DNA of 11,863 nucleotides from an uncultured Oscillospiraceae bacterium (GTDB lineage Bacteria > Bacillota > Clostridia > Oscillospirales > Acutalibacteraceae): NCBI GenBank assembly GCA_900555805.1, contig USMJ01000013.1:1-11863 (forward strand), given 5' to 3'. The translations under genes and the position numbers were made by a program. Positions 935 through 6,018 of this stretch are shown here, in pieces. The notes below the pieces were generated by a model. That model was not told where the DNA came from and made no database searches. It saw only the letters and a program-made list of their open reading frames with translations. Every line of letters begins with the position of its first letter. The stretch's first letter is position 1.

Positions 935-963
935 TTGACATTTTTGTGTGATTTTGATAAACT
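935..963 (+). promoter_or_regulatory. Sigma-A-type promoter of the SCP2/transketolase operon
   Basis: A perfect -35 element TTGACA (935-940) and a 4-of-6 -10 element TAAACT (958-963) are separated by 17 bases. Transcription would start near 970, leaving a leader of about 70 bases before the first gene. It is the only good promoter found between the upstream terminator and base 1040. Confidence 0.65.
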
Positions 964-1018: not shown

Positions 1019-1039
1019 CGGAATAAGGAGGAATTCATC

Positions 1040-1798
1040 ATGACAGATGCAAAAACCTTAGCGTATATCAACCTTTTCGGTATCTTAGGCGCTTTGGAAA
1101 ATCTTTGTGAGCTTGACGAAGGCGCACAGGAATTGTTAAAGGGTAAAAAGCCCATCTCAATCGGCATCACGGTCAAGGGCGGCCCGAGCGCAACCCTTAC
1201 CTTTAAAAACTGCCGCTGCAGAATGGAAGAAGGCGTCAGCGACTGCGATGTTAAGCTTCCGTTCTCTTCTTGCGAGAAGTTCAACGGTCTGCTCGACGGA
1301 ACGACCACTCCGATCCCGTCAAAGGGCTTCACACACATCGGCTTTCTTCTCAAACAGTTCGTCGGTCTGACCGATATTCTCACCAAATATCTCCGCCCGA
1401 CAGAGGAAGACCTCAAGGACGAAAAGTTCTTCGAGACAAGCACGAAGATCATGTTCTATCTCATCACGGTCGCTATCTCTCAGATCGCTAACCACGACGA
1501 GATCGGCAAGTTCAGCGCTCACCTCGTACCCGACGGTATCATCGAAATGTCGATCAAGGGCTCTGTCGGCGCAACGATCAGAGTTAAGGATCATCACTTC
1601 GTCACGATCAAACAGAGACCTCAGTCGTACCGCTCGGCTATGCAGTTCGGCGACATTCATCTCGCCCGCGACCTCTTCGACGGCAAGGTCAACGCAGTTG
1701 CCTGCATAGGTGAAGGAACGATTGAGATGCACGGTCTCATCAACATGATAGACAATGTCAACAGAATTCTTGACAGAGTCGGTCTCTACTTAGCATAA
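1040..1798 (+). CDS. Tandem SCP2-like lipid-carrier-fold protein, first of operon
   Basis: A 252-residue soluble protein with no signal peptide. It appears to contain two SCP2-like (sterol carrier protein 2) halves. Residues about 38-118 hold alternating beta strands, then LPFSSCEKFNGLLDG, resembling the SCP2 segment where a strand is followed by a short helix before a Gly. Residues about 165-248 hold the second half ending in GEGTIEMHGL and an amphipathic helix. A linker helix includes FYLITVAISQI (139-149). The same order and the FYL-x-T-x-x-ISQ and R/K-x-AM-x-F signatures recur in the protein encoded at 5118-5921, so the two are paralogues. SCP2 folds bind acyl chains, acyl-CoA or other hydrophobic ligands in a cavity; the ligand here is unknown. 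The start has the strong site AAGGAGGA. The next gene begins 13 bases downstream. The family call rests on pattern recognition, so it needs profile or structure confirmation. Codons are strongly biased to ATC, CTC and GGC, suggesting high expression. Confidence 0.65.
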   Translation: MTDAKTLAYINLFGILGALENLCELDEGAQELLKGKKPISIGITVKGGPSATLTFKNCRCRMEEGVSDCDVKLPFSSCEKFNGLLDGTTTPIPSKGFTHIGFLLKQFVGLTDILTKYLRPTEEDLKDEKFFETSTKIMFYLITVAISQIANHDEIGKFSAHLVPDGIIEMSIKGSVGATIRVKDHHFVTIKQRPQSYRSAMQFGDIHLARDLFDGKVNAVACIGEGTIEMHGLINMIDNVNRILDRVGLYLA

Positions 1799-1811
1799 GG
1801 AGGGTTTTAAA

Positions 1812-3083
1812 ATGAGTTTTCCGACATATAAAAATGATAAAAGTGCCGAGCTTTATGCGAGAGCCACAAAAGTCATTCCTTCCGGCGTTTACGGTCATTT
1901 AGGCCCTGCCGAAGGTCAGTTCATCCCCGTTCAGAAGTGGCCCCGTTTCTCAGACAAGGCCAAGGGTACATATTTCTGGGATGTTGACGGCAACAGATAT
2001 ATCGACTATATGTGCGCATACGGTCCGAACGTTCTCGGCTACTGCGACCCCGATGTTGACAAGGCGGCTATCGCCCAGATCAAACTCGGCAACTGCACGA
2101 CCTCGCCGAATAAGATCATGATCGACTGCGCCGAGCTTCTCGTTGACACCGTTAACTGCGCCGACTGGGCTTTCTTCGCCAAGAACGGCAACGACGTCAC
2201 ACAGGCGGCTATCATGACCGCAAGAGCTCACACCCACAGAAAGAAGATCATCTTCTTCAACGGCTTCTATCACGGCGTTTCAGCCGTCGTTCAGAAGATC
2301 GACTATCCGGGCATTCTTCCCGAGGACGTCGCCAACAACCTCTATGTCAACTGGGACGATATCGACGGTCTCAAGAAGACTATCGAGGAGAACAAGGGCG
2401 AGATCGCGGGTCTCATCGCTCAGCCCTATAACCACGGCAACTTCGCCGACAACTCGATCTCAAGCAAGGAGTTCTGGCAGCAGGTCCGCAAGCTTTGCGA
2501 CGACAACGGAATCATTCTTATTATAGATGACGTACGCGCCGGCTTCCGTCTTGACCTTGCAGGTTCCGACCACTATTTCGGTTTCAAGGCCGACCTTATC
2601 TGCTTCTGTAAGGCTCTGGCAAACGGCTACAATATGTCAGCCCTTTGCGGCAGAGAGTTCCTCAAGAGCACTGTTTCCGGTCTTTCATACACAGGTTCAT
2701 ACTGGATGAGCGCTGTTCCGTTCGCGGCTTGTATCGCTTGTATCAACAAGATGAAGAAGCTCGACACTCCCAAGCTCTTCAGAGAAAAGGGTCTCAAGCT
2801 CACCGACGGCCTCATCGCCGCAGGTAAAGAGCACGGCTTCGACCTCGTATTCTCGGGCGAACCGTCGCTGTTCTATCTCAGAATAGCTAACGACGACTCC
2901 ATGCTCCTTCATCAGGAATGGATCGCCGAGTGCGTCAACAGAGGCGTATTCTTCGCTTCTCACCACAACCACTTCATCAACGCGGCTCTCTCAGACGACG
3001 ACATCAAGCTCACTGTTGAGATCGCCGAGGATGCGTTCAAGGTTGTCGCCAAGAATCACCCCGAGCTCGCCGAGCTTCACTGA
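1812..3083 (+). CDS. Class III PLP aminotransferase, glutamate-1-semialdehyde aminomutase-like
   Basis: A 423-residue cytosolic fold-type I PLP enzyme. Visible landmarks are the N-terminal beta segment GTYFWDVDGNRYIDY (52-66), the cofactor phosphate loop NGNDVT (125-130), the NGFYHG motif (150-155), IIDDVRAGFR (237-246) with the Asp that should bind the pyridine nitrogen, and FCKALANGYN (265-274) in which Lys267 is the expected Schiff-base lysine. The end motif ALSDDDI (392-398) is like AHTDEDI of HemL. It departs from true HemL at several motifs: NGND replaces NSGTEA, DDVRAGFR replaces DEVMTGFR, and the GGG after the lysine is ANG. This suggests a different amino-acceptor rather than heme synthesis. 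No other heme gene is nearby. It is co-transcribed with a split transketolase and two SCP2-like proteins, so the substrate may be a ketol made by the transketolase. The ribosome binding site is AGGAGGG, 13 bases after the previous gene. Family is confident; substrate unknown. Confidence 0.85.
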   Translation: MSFPTYKNDKSAELYARATKVIPSGVYGHLGPAEGQFIPVQKWPRFSDKAKGTYFWDVDGNRYIDYMCAYGPNVLGYCDPDVDKAAIAQIKLGNCTTSPNKIMIDCAELLVDTVNCADWAFFAKNGNDVTQAAIMTARAHTHRKKIIFFNGFYHGVSAVVQKIDYPGILPEDVANNLYVNWDDIDGLKKTIEENKGEIAGLIAQPYNHGNFADNSISSKEFWQQVRKLCDDNGIILIIDDVRAGFRLDLAGSDHYFGFKADLICFCKALANGYNMSALCGREFLKSTVSGLSYTGSYWMSAVPFAACIACINKMKKLDTPKLFREKGLKLTDGLIAAGKEHGFDLVFSGEPSLFYLRIANDDSMLLHQEWIAECVNRGVFFASHHNHFINAALSDDDIKLTVEIAEDAFKVVAKNHPELAELH

Positions 3084-3097
3084 TAAAAGTATTTAAT

Positions 3098-3168
3098 GCG
3101 TATGCGGCGGGCACTCGCTTCAAACCGGGGCAAACGACTTCGGCAAGCACTCACTCGCCGCGTACGGC
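3098..3168. repeat. Imperfect palindromic element between aminotransferase and transketolase
   Basis: In the 121-base gap, CGTATGCGGCG (3099-3109) pairs with CGCCGCGTACG (3156-3166), an 11-bp stem with one G-T pair. The loop contains the direct near-repeat GCACTCGC / GCACTCAC (3111-3118, 3148-3155). No T-run follows; the sequence after it is A-rich, so it does not look like a + strand terminator. Read on the minus strand it begins GTACGCGGCGAGTGAGTGCTT, closely matching the + strand near 7690-7710. It could be a dispersed intergenic repeat that also shapes messenger stability within the operon. Confidence 0.6.
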
Positions 3169-3204
3169 AAAAAATAAAAGTAAAATTTTTAGGAGGAAAT
3201 AACT

Positions 3205-4083
3205 ATGCCACTTTCAAAAAAAGAATGGCTTGCGCTTGAGAAGAAAGCATTTGATCTTCGTAAGCTCTGCCTTCAGACAACAATGTGGGCAGGCAGCGGT
3301 CATATCGGCGGCGGTATGAGCGTTATGGATCTTCTCACCGTTCTTTATTACAAATATCTCAACATCAAGGTTGAGGAGCCCAAGTGGGAAGACAGAGACA
3401 GATTTATTCTTTCAAAGGGCCACGCTGCTATTGCGTACGCCCCGGTTCTCTGCGACAAGGGATTCAACGATCCCGAAATGTTAAAGACATTCAACCTTTC
3501 AGGTTCTAAGATGGGTATGCACCTTGACTCAAACAAGGTCGTCGGCGTTGACGCTTCGACAGGCTCTCTCGGCCACGGCGTTTCTATCGCGGCAGGTACG
3601 GCTCTCGCAGCGAGAATCCTCGGCAAGGACTATCTCACATACGTTGTCACAGGCGACGGTGAGCTTGGCGAAGGCTCCAACTGGGAAGGCTTCATGACCA
3701 TCAACCACTATCAGCTTTCCAACTGCATCGTCTTCATCGACAGAAACCACTGCATGATCGACGGTCCGACAGAGGAAGTTATGAAGCTCGAGCCTCTTGC
3801 TGACAAGATGGTTGCTTTCGGCTTCAACACTCTCGTTATCGACGGCAACAATATCGGCGCTCTCTGCGACGCTATTGATCAGGCTATCGAAAGATCGAAG
3901 GAAAAGTGCGCTCCGACCTGTATCATTATGGATACTAAGAAGGGCGCAGGTATCAAGGACATCGCGGGCGACTATCACTGTCACTACATGGCTCTTGACG
4001 ACGACACCTTTGCAAGATACAACAAAGAACTCGAAGAAGATTATAATGCACGCTGCGCTCGTGCGGAAAAGGAGGGTAAATAA
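3205..4083 (+). CDS. Transketolase, N-terminal (TPP pyrophosphate-binding) subunit
   Basis: 292 residues, covering only the N-terminal third to half of a conventional transketolase. Transketolase moves a two-carbon ketol unit between a ketose donor and an aldehyde acceptor using thiamine diphosphate and a divalent metal. Motifs present are GSGHIGGG with His33, SKGHAA with His73, GSLGHGVSIA (120-129), and the TPP/metal motif GDGELGEGSNWEG (150-162) ending near DRN (179-181). The partner half is encoded 2 bases downstream, so the two chains should form one heterotetrameric enzyme. The ribosome binding site AGGAGGA is strong. It lies downstream of the aminotransferase across a 121-base gap with no clear terminator, so cotranscription is likely. 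Split transketolases are known in Clostridia and archaea and can serve the pentose phosphate pathway or specialised ketol chemistry; the sequence alone does not say which. Codon use suggests high expression. Confidence 0.92.
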   Translation: MPLSKKEWLALEKKAFDLRKLCLQTTMWAGSGHIGGGMSVMDLLTVLYYKYLNIKVEEPKWEDRDRFILSKGHAAIAYAPVLCDKGFNDPEMLKTFNLSGSKMGMHLDSNKVVGVDASTGSLGHGVSIAAGTALAARILGKDYLTYVVTGDGELGEGSNWEGFMTINHYQLSNCIVFIDRNHCMIDGPTEEVMKLEPLADKMVAFGFNTLVIDGNNIGALCDAIDQAIERSKEKCAPTCIIMDTKKGAGIKDIAGDYHCHYMALDDDTFARYNKELEEDYNARCARAEKEGK

Positions 4084-4085
4084 TT

Positions 4086-5096
4086 ATGGCAGGCGGATTT
4101 GTTTATAACGCAATCGACCAGACAGATGTTGCTACCGCTGAAATTTACGGTAAGGCTCTGGCTGACCTCATAATGAAAGACCCCAAGGTTGTCGCTATCA
4201 CGGCTGACCTTGCAAAATCAACAAAGCTCGGCGACGTTCTCAAGGTTTGCCCCGAGAGAGTTATCAATGTCGGTATCGCTGAGCAGGATATGTTCGGCGT
4301 AGCCGCAGGTATGGCAAGAGCAGGCTGTATCCCGTTCCTTTCGGGCTTCTCAGCTTTCACTTCGATGAGAGCCTGCGATCAGCTCCACACCGACATCTGC
4401 TATCAGAACGTCAACGCTAAGATCATAGCCACTCACGCCGGCACTTCGTTCGGCCAGGCAGGTTCAACACATCACGCTATCGTTGACCTCGCTATCACAA
4501 GAGCTATGCCCAACCTCACTGTTATAGTTCCCGCCGACGGTTTCGAGACCGCCAACGCAGTCAATGCGGCGTACGAAAACTTCGGACCCTATTATATCCG
4601 TATCAACAGAGGTTTCGACCGTGTTCTCTACAAAGACATGAACTACGGCTTCGAAGTTGGCAAGGCTGTTGAAGTACACGAGGGTACAGACATCACGGTT
4701 ATCGCTTGCGGCTCATGCGTATTCCAGGCAAGAGAAGCGGCTAACTTCCTTGAGAACGCGGACGGCCTTAAGGTCAGAGTTCTCAATATGCATACAATCA
4801 AGCCCATCGACAAGGACGCCATCATCAAGGCTGTTATGGACACGAGAAGAATCATCACCGTTGAGGATCACAGCATCATCGGCGGTCTCGGCTCGGCTGT
4901 TTCAGAGGTCGTCGTTGAGTCCGGTAAGGCTTGCGCGTTCAAGATGCTCGGTCATCCCGACAAGTTCGCACCCATCGGTCTGCATGAAGACATTATGTCA
5001 GAGGTCGGCATCGACGCTAACGGCATAATCGCGGCAGTCCGTGAGGTTATGAAGAAAGACTTCGAAGAAGACGACAACTGGGACGACGAATTCTAA
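4086..5096 (+). CDS. Transketolase, C-terminal (pyrimidine-binding) subunit
   Basis: 336 residues forming the pyrimidine-binding and C-terminal regulatory domains of a split transketolase. INVGIAEQDM (60-69) carries Glu66, the glutamate that activates the thiamine ring. GFSAFTSMRACDQL (87-100) and the GSTHHAIVDLA segment (126-136) belong to the substrate/cofactor channel. The TVEDHSIIGGLGSAV segment marks the C-terminal domain. The start is 2 bases after the N-terminal subunit's stop, with AAGGAGGG inside that gene's end, implying translational coupling. The last residues (DFEEDDNWDDEF) are an acidic tail not needed for the fold. The two chains together total 628 residues, close to a one-chain enzyme. 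The acceptor aldehyde is unknown; the SCP2-like and aminotransferase neighbours suggest it may not be an ordinary sugar phosphate, but a housekeeping role is equally compatible with the protein itself. Confidence 0.92.
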   Translation: MAGGFVYNAIDQTDVATAEIYGKALADLIMKDPKVVAITADLAKSTKLGDVLKVCPERVINVGIAEQDMFGVAAGMARAGCIPFLSGFSAFTSMRACDQLHTDICYQNVNAKIIATHAGTSFGQAGSTHHAIVDLAITRAMPNLTVIVPADGFETANAVNAAYENFGPYYIRINRGFDRVLYKDMNYGFEVGKAVEVHEGTDITVIACGSCVFQAREAANFLENADGLKVRVLNMHTIKPIDKDAIIKAVMDTRRIITVEDHSIIGGLGSAVSEVVVESGKACAFKMLGHPDKFAPIGLHEDIMSEVGIDANGIIAAVREVMKKDFEEDDNWDDEF

Positions 5097-5117
5097 TACA
5101 GGAAAGGAGCAAATATA

Positions 5118-5921
5118 ATGTCAATACCACAGGAAGCATTATATTCAAACAAGATATTTTTAAATGCTGCTCTTCCGCTCGTTAAGGTCATCGCGACAGA
5201 TGTTCCGTCTCTCGCGAAGAAATTTGAACACGCTCACGCCGTCATTCAGGTCAGCTGTCTCAATCCCGAAGCTCCCGAGGGCAAGGTCGGTATGCACTTC
5301 GTCGTCAACAGCGGCGAATGGCTCGTTCACACCTGCCTGACGAAGGATCCTCATATTGAGCTTGAGTTCAAGAGCGTTGAGGCTCTCAACGGCTTTTTCA
5401 AGGGCAACATAACACTCGGCGCCATTCCGAAGATCCACGGCGTTAAGAAAGCCGGCACACTCGTCGCTTTCGTTCAGGTTCTTCTCAAGATGGCTTCTCT
5501 TCTCGGCGCATCAACACCGCCGGAGGACGAAGAGACACAGAGACTCATGGTCAAGTGCTTCTTCTATCTTCTCACAAGCGGTATCAGCCAGCTCAACAAG
5601 CTCGGTCATCCCGAGATCCACGATTGGGCTTTGAAGTCGCCCGACAGAGTTTACGCTCTCGCAGTCGACGGACATCCCGAGGTTGCGGCATACATCCGCG
5701 TTAAGGCAGGCAAGACAAGAGCAGGCAGAGGCGAATACAAGAGAGCTATGCCTTTCTTCACTCTTCGCTTCGATTCCTTCAAGAGCGCGCTCGGCACTCT
5801 TCTCGGAACAGACGACATGCTCGAGTCGACAAAGTCAGGAAAGCTCATCATGGACGGCGCACCGGAATTCGGCGCACAGCTCGGCGGCTTCCTTCTTATG
5901 ATCGGCGATCTTGCAAAATAA
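5118..5921 (+). CDS. Tandem SCP2-like lipid-carrier-fold protein, last of operon
   Basis: A 267-residue soluble protein, paralogous to the operon's first gene product. The N-terminal half (about 35-128) has PHIELEFKSVEALNGFFKGN (78-97), a good match to the SCP2 strand-helix-Gly pattern. The C-terminal half (about 174-266) contains YKRAMPFFTLRFDSF (207-221) and SGKLIMDGAPEFGAQLGGFL (240-259), matching the SCP2 end region of Gly-Lys-Leu, Gly and an amphipathic lid helix. The linker has FYLLTSGISQL (149-159), matching FYLITVAISQI of the first protein. SCP2 domains bind hydrophobic ligands; no catalytic residues are apparent. The ribosome binding site GGAAAGGAG is strong, and the gene follows the transketolase by 21 bases. 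An intrinsic terminator lies 54 bases after its stop, so this is the last gene of the operon. Two non-identical carriers could handle substrate and product, or form a heterodimer; this is inference. Confidence 0.7.
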   Translation: MSIPQEALYSNKIFLNAALPLVKVIATDVPSLAKKFEHAHAVIQVSCLNPEAPEGKVGMHFVVNSGEWLVHTCLTKDPHIELEFKSVEALNGFFKGNITLGAIPKIHGVKKAGTLVAFVQVLLKMASLLGASTPPEDEETQRLMVKCFFYLLTSGISQLNKLGHPEIHDWALKSPDRVYALAVDGHPEVAAYIRVKAGKTRAGRGEYKRAMPFFTLRFDSFKSALGTLLGTDDMLESTKSGKLIMDGAPEFGAQLGGFLLMIGDLAK

Positions 5922-5975
5922 ACTTATTTGAGTGCAATTTTTGCACTGTTATGTGAAAGATTTTTTATAAAAAAA

Positions 5976-6018
5976 GGCTTCATCCCCGGGAGTTGTGCCC
6001 CGGGGATGAAGTCTTTTT
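5976..6018 (+). terminator. Strong intrinsic terminator ending the SCP2/transketolase operon
   Basis: GGCTTCATCCCCGGG (5976-5990) pairs with CCCGGGGATGAAGTC (5999-6013) over 15 bp with one G-T pair, followed by TTTTT (6014-6018). A run of A before the left arm means it could also stop transcription on the minus strand. Confidence 0.94.

Follow-up and report, generated by a model that had tools for sequence, protein, structure and literature searches.

The window analysed here, 11,863 nucleotides of contig USMJ01000013.1 (assembly GCA_900555805.1) from an uncultured Oscillospiraceae bacterium, contains an operon of five genes, S1, AT, TN, TC and S5, which encode a class III aminotransferase (AT) and a transketolase split into an N-terminal (TN) and a C-terminal (TC) half, with a protein of tandem SCP2-like domains at either end (S1 and S5). 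The product class proposed for this operon, the sphingoid bases, is known from the serine palmitoyltransferase (SPT) route and its polyketide synthase-linked SgaAB variant (PMC12134224). Sphingolipid production had been regarded as restricted to bacteria that encode SPT, and the making of polyketide-derived bacterial sphingolipids still involves an enzyme with SPT activity (PMC12134224). Both the SPT and the SgaAB routes use an alpha-oxoamine synthase and serine, whereas no such enzyme is encoded in the operon.

The other described systems each resemble one part of the operon. The aminopentol aminotransferase FumI of Sphingopyxis sp. MTA144 (PDB 6hbs, 6hbv) has, like AT, the class III fold and can be aligned with it over nearly the full length. 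FumI is not known to be paired with SCP2 proteins or with a transketolase. The closest solved structure to TN and TC is the two-chain split transketolase of Carboxydothermus hydrogenoformans (PDB 6yaj, 6yak), which retains the Arg of its ATR motif, the Asp of its GEDG motif and the Arg at the position of TN 97; the operon enzyme has lost all three. The C. hydrogenoformans enzyme is not known to have an SCP2 partner. UbiJ (PDB 6h6n-p), an SCP2 protein of ubiquinone synthesis with a fold like that of S1, holds lipids on behalf of soluble enzymes. It has a single SCP2 domain and belongs to another pathway, whereas the operon has two tandem proteins, one per enzyme. The site of action of FumI, with pyruvate/alanine as partner, is the 2-amino-3-hydroxy end of a long chain: it transfers the 2-amino group from hydrolysed fumonisin B1 to pyruvate (PMC2933618). 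It differs in belonging to a toxin-degrading pathway and in having a substrate without the C1 hydroxyl. The reaction order proposed below has been realised in man-made transketolase-transaminase cascades to amino-alcohols (PMC5813273), and the residue altered in the operon transketolase is the one altered in engineered D469 variants of the E. coli enzyme to admit non-hydroxylated aldehydes (PMC6310800). The engineered cascades, however, handle small or aromatic aldehydes without a carrier, and the residue is Thr or Glu in place of the Ala of the operon. Among the open-licence PMC papers listed, none was found that ties a bacterial transketolase to sphingoid or long-chain bases, or Acutalibacteraceae to sphingolipids; for Eubacterium coprostanoligenes and sphingolipids, the titles and abstract beginnings of the papers listed point apparently to microbiome correlations.

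The window thus does contain a genuine gene unit, one that is conserved, built of modules and specialised. The members come from known families, the assembly as a whole matches no known system found, and the newness lies in this assembly, the chemistry itself being proposed. The parts and signals of the unit are as follows.

935-963, plus strand: sigma-70-like promoter, TTGACA / 17 / TAAACT with TG before the -10 (consensus match only, 10/12)
1025-1031, plus strand: ribosome-binding site AAGGAGG of the S1 gene (by reading)
1040-1798, plus strand: S1, 252 amino acids, tandem SCP2-like domains, paired with AT (open reading frame, fold, co-evolution)
1812-3083, plus strand: AT, 423 amino acids, class III aminotransferase (Pfam; FumI is the closest solved structure)
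codon 2610-2612, plus strand: K267 of AT, invariant in 12 sequences, by family the presumed lysine that binds pyridoxal 5'-phosphate (PLP)
3097-3171 (approximate ends), plus strand: hairpin in the AT-TN gap, between the modules S1-AT and TN-TC-S5 (-35.3 kcal/mol, z -3.35)
3205-4083, plus strand: TN, 292 amino acids, N-terminal half of the split transketolase (Pfam, structure matches)
codon 3493-3495, plus strand: N97 of TN, Arg in ordinary transketolases (alignment)
4086-5096, plus strand: TC, 336 amino acids, C-terminal half of the split transketolase (Pfam, structure matches)
4137-4139, plus strand: A18 of TC, in place of a phosphate Arg (alignment)
4458-4460, plus strand: A125 of TC, in place of the acceptor-hydroxyl Asp (alignment)
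5118-5921, plus strand: S5, 267 amino acids, tandem SCP2-like domains, paired with the transketolase (open reading frame, fold)
5971-6018, plus strand: intrinsic terminator (-36.3 kcal/mol, z -6.73)

The initial annotation described five tightly spaced co-directional genes between one promoter and one terminator. The five reading frames lie where it placed them and both signals are present; the tight spacing holds for the gaps of 13, 2 and 21 bases, and fails for the 121 bases between AT and TN. The scans for both kinds of signal were noisy in number (26 promoters found against 11.1 expected, 29 terminators against 13.0); the fold of the terminator at 5971-6018 is far stronger than that of shuffled sequence.

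Conservation was examined in an AT-anchored scan with one genome per GTDB species, which gave 80 loci, the best 80 of at least 528 relatives. By their titles these are mostly metagenome-assembled genomes (MAGs) of Clostridia, Oscillospiraceae or Ruminococcaceae, many of them from gut, rumen or faeces. The named isolate among them is E. coprostanoligenes ATCC 51222 (L076; genome G001), and because the operon occurs in this culture-collection isolate the idea developed below is directly testable. The five genes stand in the same order at 70 of the 80 loci, far above chance; nine loci are cut by a contig end, and one (L017) has no transketolase part. Across the 70 complete loci the lowest identity to the window is 45% for S1, 70% for AT, 51% for TN, 63% for TC and 54% for S5. 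S5 is present in 3 of 299 genomes sampled from the phylum of G001 and in 5 of 245 genomes of its order (G001 counted in both). Of 200 genomes of one family (the query genome counted, one 19.5-bit S1 match left out), 45 have both S1 and S5, three have S1 only, none has S5 only, and 152 have neither.

The order is also kept in a second class, that of genome G168, which does not include G001. There, the S1 alignment finds a match at E<=0.001 in 18 of 97 genomes, and in 11 of these it exceeds 200 bits. Twelve regions from this class were examined (L124-L135), and eight of them, from eight genomes (L124-L131), contain the whole unit in the same order, so that the conservation beyond a single strain looked for by the initial annotation is found in both classes. 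L132 and L134 have four genes up to a contig end, and L133 has a piece of TC with S5. The identities between the window and L124 are 28% (S1), 46% (AT), 51% (TN), 58% (TC) and 31% (S5). Genome G167 likewise has the whole unit, at 36-64% identity. The few names among 46 relatives of the G168 S1 protein include Dethiobacteria, Candidatus Hakubella, Brocadiia and Ignavibacteriales (S1 matches only). In the remaining region, from genome G808, a single open reading frame (L135:7433-8191) beside TN-TC joins the first part of S1 to the last ~80 residues of an AT, which would reflect either a deletion or faulty assembly; elsewhere in this genome the best AT match has 30% identity.

The unit consists of two modules, S1-AT and TN-TC-S5. 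In G168 and G568 all five genes are present, with the pair and the trio on different contigs; in L151 the trio is placed before the pair, and in L152 and L153 other genes intervene between them. Pairwise identities over 21 chosen gene sets correlate at 0.96 for S1-AT and at 0.92-0.93 among TN, TC and S5, compared with 0.69-0.78 across the modules. In nine second-class genomes the corresponding values are 0.89, 0.97-0.98 and 0.12-0.29. Judged by these correlations, S1 and AT evolve together, as do S5 and the transketolase. In L130 and L131 the S1-AT pair is L124-like (0.70-0.82) and the TN-TC-S5 trio is G168-like (0.84-0.90), which suggests an exchange of the whole trio in one piece.

The description of the first and last genes as SCP2-like is confirmed by their AlphaFold models (pLDDT 92.4 for S1 and 92.5 for S5), both of which match SCP2 structures and belong to this fold; UbiJ-SCP2 is the top-ranked match of S1. 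The window proteins have no Pfam match at E<=0.1. More distant relatives reach PF02036 (cut-off 21.3 bits), namely S1 of L094 with 26.8 bits and S5 of L128 with 38.1 bits; the distant S5 of L093 has no PF02036 match. S1 and S5 are putative carriers of hydrophobic ligands. A third, single-domain SCP2 protein (PF02036, 48.9 bits) is encoded just past the operon of E. coprostanoligenes on the opposite strand (L076:12495-12824, minus strand).

TN and TC contain PF00456, PF02779 and PF02780 above cut-off, and score 226 and 238 bits, respectively, on the transketolase model; on the DXS model TC scores 199 bits. The N half that binds thiamine diphosphate, the pyrimidine/C-terminal half, the catalytic His and the GDG motif of a transketolase are all present. 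D151, G152, His33, His73, His106 and His260 of TN are invariant in 77 rows, and the His residues presumably hold the ketol hydroxyl. What is missing are Asp and Arg residues through which a sugar-phosphate acceptor is held by its hydroxyl and its phosphate. The window and 74 further loci (TC) or 76 further loci (TN) were compared with eight ordinary transketolases. TC 125 is Ala in 75/75 operon rows and Asp in 8/8 ordinary enzymes, TC 18 is Ala in 66 rows and Ser in nine where 8/8 ordinary enzymes have Arg, and TN 97 is Asn in 77/77 against Arg in 8/8. Next to the lost Asp, TC 124 is Gln rather than Glu, and TC 122 Phe rather than Val. In distant sets the Asp at TC 125 is absent from 15/15 sequences (Ala in 14, Ser in L136), and TN 97 is Asn in 25/25 aligned proteins, 15 of them from these sets.

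By alignment, TC 125 and TC 18 correspond to D424 and R318 of human transketolase. TC 125 would then be D469 of E. coli and D477 of yeast, TC 18 would be R358 and R359, and TN 97 would be R91. In the E. coli enzyme D469 bridges to Arg91 and His100, and successive rounds of evolution led to variants of this enzyme for nonpolar aldehydes, aliphatic and aromatic (PMC6310800). The replacements D469E and D469T (E. coli) and D477E (yeast) raise the activity on aliphatic aldehydes, and R528 binds phosphate (PMC5573996). Because TC 125, TC 18 and TN 97 differ from the ordinary enzymes, contacts to a polar acceptor appear to be lost. As far as the alignment tells, the contact to the acceptor hydroxyl, its Arg partner and, in most of these enzymes, one phosphate contact are gone, and the donor side and the other phosphate contacts are kept. 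The initial annotation left room for a housekeeping enzyme. A second, better-scoring TN, however, is found on a contig separate from that of the TN beside S1 in 8/8 genomes tested, and these ordinary transketolases are also split. On the residue evidence the operon transketolase is distinct from the housekeeping one. An ordinary transketolase was dropped as the main explanation on the grounds of these residue differences and the second transketolase per genome.

AT passes its Pfam cut-off. Among solved structures it matches FumI with 302 bits and, next, a glutamate-1-semialdehyde (GSA) aminomutase with 166 bits; for the distant AT of G168 the scores are 320 bits for FumI and 175 for the next. 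AT is thus closer to FumI, among solved structures only, than to GSA aminomutase or the gamma-aminobutyrate/ornithine aminotransferases, and has the PLP lysine. The NCBIfam profiles GntE (218 bits) and GSA aminomutase (217 bits) match AT far under their cut-offs, which leaves the family unnamed in NCBIfam; no FumI model was seen there.

The enzyme classes imply the chemistry that is proposed, and the carriers together with the altered pocket point to a hydrophobic substrate. Two enzyme-plus-carrier modules would work on it in sequence. S5 would deliver a long-chain aldehyde to TN-TC, which would add the HOCH2-CO- unit of a ketose phosphate or of hydroxypyruvate to give a 1,3-dihydroxy-2-ketone. 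S1 would then deliver this ketone to AT, and amination at C2, the amino group coming from alanine or some other amino acid, would yield a 2-amino-1,3-diol, which is the head group found in sphingoid bases. Such a route would dispense with SPT and with a 3-keto reductase. SCP2-presented transketolation of a hydrophobic aldehyde followed by transamination to a sphingoid-type 2-amino-1,3-diol is the best of several readings; with substrate, product and direction all inferred, we hold it tentatively, as quite possible though short of probable. The wider proposition, that many gut Clostridia and a second class of anaerobes possess a natural SPT-free path to sphingoid-type membrane lipids, in which a transketolase for lipids and an aminotransferase of the FumI type would each receive substrate from a tandem SCP2 protein of its own, is more doubtful.

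The aminodiol pathway suggested by the initial annotation is upheld in part: the chemistry is strengthened by the loss of the transketolase Asp and Arg and by the kinship with FumI, and weakened by several observations. Its expectation of genomes free of SPT agrees with the eight genomes searched, where the alpha-oxoamine synthase model TIGR01825 (SPT superfamily) finds nothing above 21 bits, the ability of this model to find a true SPT not having been shown; the missing synthase fits an SPT-free route without proving the need for one. G167, with the whole unit, departs from this pattern: alpha-oxoamine synthases are matched strongly twice there, at 567 and 398 bits. The following points likewise weigh against a biosynthetic aminodiol route. 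A LuxC-type aldehyde-forming acyl reductase (PF05893) is found in none of ten genomes, and no lipid gene is among the neighbour families common to most loci. The sample consists mostly of MAGs. Transketolase normally forms a 3S centre, opposite to that of sphinganine. The phosphate contacts, whose roles are partly presumed, are lost only in part: TC His117 and Arg175 are retained in the operon rows, Ser at TC 45 (75/75, against Ala in the ordinary enzymes) keeps a contact, and TC 18 varies in the distant sets, where G168 and L136 have Arg and L130 and L131 have Lys. The top yeast variant for aliphatic aldehydes is D477E, in which the charge is kept, not Ala (PMC5573996), and FumI is catabolic. 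L017 has S1-AT without transketolase over 7 kb of contig downstream (L017:9267-16272), and in 3 of 48 S1-bearing genomes AT is present and the only TC proteins are of the ordinary type (39-42% identity), an absence that is soft as genome completeness is not stated. Because these three genomes and L017 carry S1-AT without an operon-type transketolase, AT may serve a purpose apart from it. In G730 (L148), S1-AT occurs without the TN-TC-S5 trio in the whole genome searched.

The main rival runs the same chemistry backwards: AT would form the 1,3-dihydroxy-2-ketone by deaminating a sphingoid base or a comparable aminodiol, and the two-carbon unit would be passed by the transketolase to a sugar phosphate, freeing a fatty aldehyde, so that sphingoid bases would be degraded without sphingosine-1-phosphate lyase. 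Both enzyme types are in general reversible, FumI works in this direction, many of the 80 loci come from gut, rumen or faeces, where sphingolipids of host or diet occur, and the genomes with S1-AT alone would suit a deaminating use. Degradation is nevertheless unlikely in our estimate. Neither a lipase nor a ceramidase is among the neighbour families common to several loci (ten proteins examined by Pfam, the rest by reading), no transporter or dehydrogenase is common to most loci, and codon use points to high expression. The whole unit also occurs in the second class, with S1 relatives named, for example, Dethiobacteria and Candidatus Hakubella, neither of which is known as a gut resident. Likewise unlikely is another hydrophobic or aromatic aldehyde as acceptor, such as an isoprenoid, aryl or steroid aldehyde, with a different amino-polyol (pigment, cofactor or secondary metabolite) as the product. 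The pocket changes imply a non-hydroxylated acceptor and not specifically a fatty one, E. coli variants altered at the same Asp, together with other residues, accept aromatic aldehydes (PMC6310800), and E. coprostanoligenes reduces sterols (PMC8468837). Four SCP2-like domains and the kinship with FumI, on the other hand, point to a long flexible chain, and the shared neighbours include no gene that would supply aromatic or isoprenoid precursors.

Two further explanations concern the thiamine enzyme itself. If it took pyruvate, as DXS does, the product would be a 1-deoxy-type 2-amino-3-ol, the unit recognised by FumI, whose substrate is a 2-aminoicosane without the C1 hydroxyl; the score of TC on the DXS model agrees with this. 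We consider it improbable, as both halves score higher on the transketolase model, the closest solved structures are split transketolase chains, and the His residues with presumed ketol-hydroxyl roles are invariant. The most improbable explanation is that the enzymes serve ordinary metabolism of sugar phosphates or amino sugars and have SCP2 genes beside them that are unrelated. In the eight genomes the ordinary transketolases are split as well, and three of four phosphate contacts, with partly presumed roles, are retained; each of these genomes, however, has a further transketolase in which the usual Asp and Arg are present, the SCP2 proteins follow their enzymes (S5 the transketolase, S1 AT), and the polar-acceptor residues of the operon enzyme are lost. 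The sphingoid-type route remains the preferred one, its fatty chain and its direction being inferred. Should aminodiol lipids be made or broken by this operon, these bacteria, those of the gut included, have been overlooked as sphingolipid sources or sinks. The operon would then be a natural counterpart of a hand-built chemical cascade, with the same active-site position altered, and a source of enzymes for chiral aminodiol synthesis.

A plasmalogen-derived aldehyde as the substrate was left as speculation: E. coprostanoligenes needs no plasmenylethanolamine, and related sterol-reducing strains require it (PMC8468837). A longer operon was ruled out, no additional gene common to most loci being present in the 45 largest neighbour families. 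The flanks vary among loci, and the most frequent neighbour family is SecA (21/80). The genes 3' of the unit in the window, dnaA, dnaN, a small S4-like gene, recF and gyrB (named by reading), have the typical oriC order; dnaA, dnaN, recF and gyrB have no match at E<=1e-5 in the 80 loci, and this neighbourhood was rejected as a functional clue and is not part of the system. The share of ATA among Ile codons is 11/115 in the operon and 79/157 in dnaA-gyrB (Fisher p 2e-13). The rarity of ATA relative to dnaA-gyrB, the sole reference set, suggests that the operon is highly expressed, as would suit a central pathway or the making of a structural lipid.

Several neighbours recur at some of the loci. 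An NAD-dependent epimerase/dehydratase-like gene occurs in seven, on the operon strand in six and mostly right after S5 (L054:12104-13123 and relatives), and a double class II aldolase-like gene is among the neighbours of the unit in ten. A second class III aminotransferase gene, on the minus strand and divergent upstream of S1, is present in L002, L003, L005, L006, L012, L013, L021, L026 and L036; L154 also has one (L154:9916-11013), and L012 has the aldolase-like gene as well. The second aminotransferase is 26-30% identical to AT, and its closest NCBIfam model is GSA aminomutase, under cut-off. A MurT-like Mur ligase gene stands immediately upstream of S1, in the same direction, at five variant loci, three of which were scanned by Pfam (L124:4624-6054, L127:13118-14686, L130:1116-2660, L131:6053-7483 and L132:5434-6873). 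Genes resembling a proton-translocating NADP transhydrogenase, identified by reading, lie beside S1-AT (L094:4914-7841), the whole unit (L125:8300-10815) and TN-TC-S5 (L136:1824-5479).

Upstream of the operon in the window are two tiny open reading frames (550-681 and 707-814; 43 and 35 amino acids), hydrophobic with charged ends, each behind a Shine-Dalgarno-like stretch and with no Pfam match. A strong terminator-like site follows them at 834-870. A G+C-rich repeat of 33 bases is present in two copies within positions 1-93, with starts 60 bases apart, in a non-coding-looking stretch.

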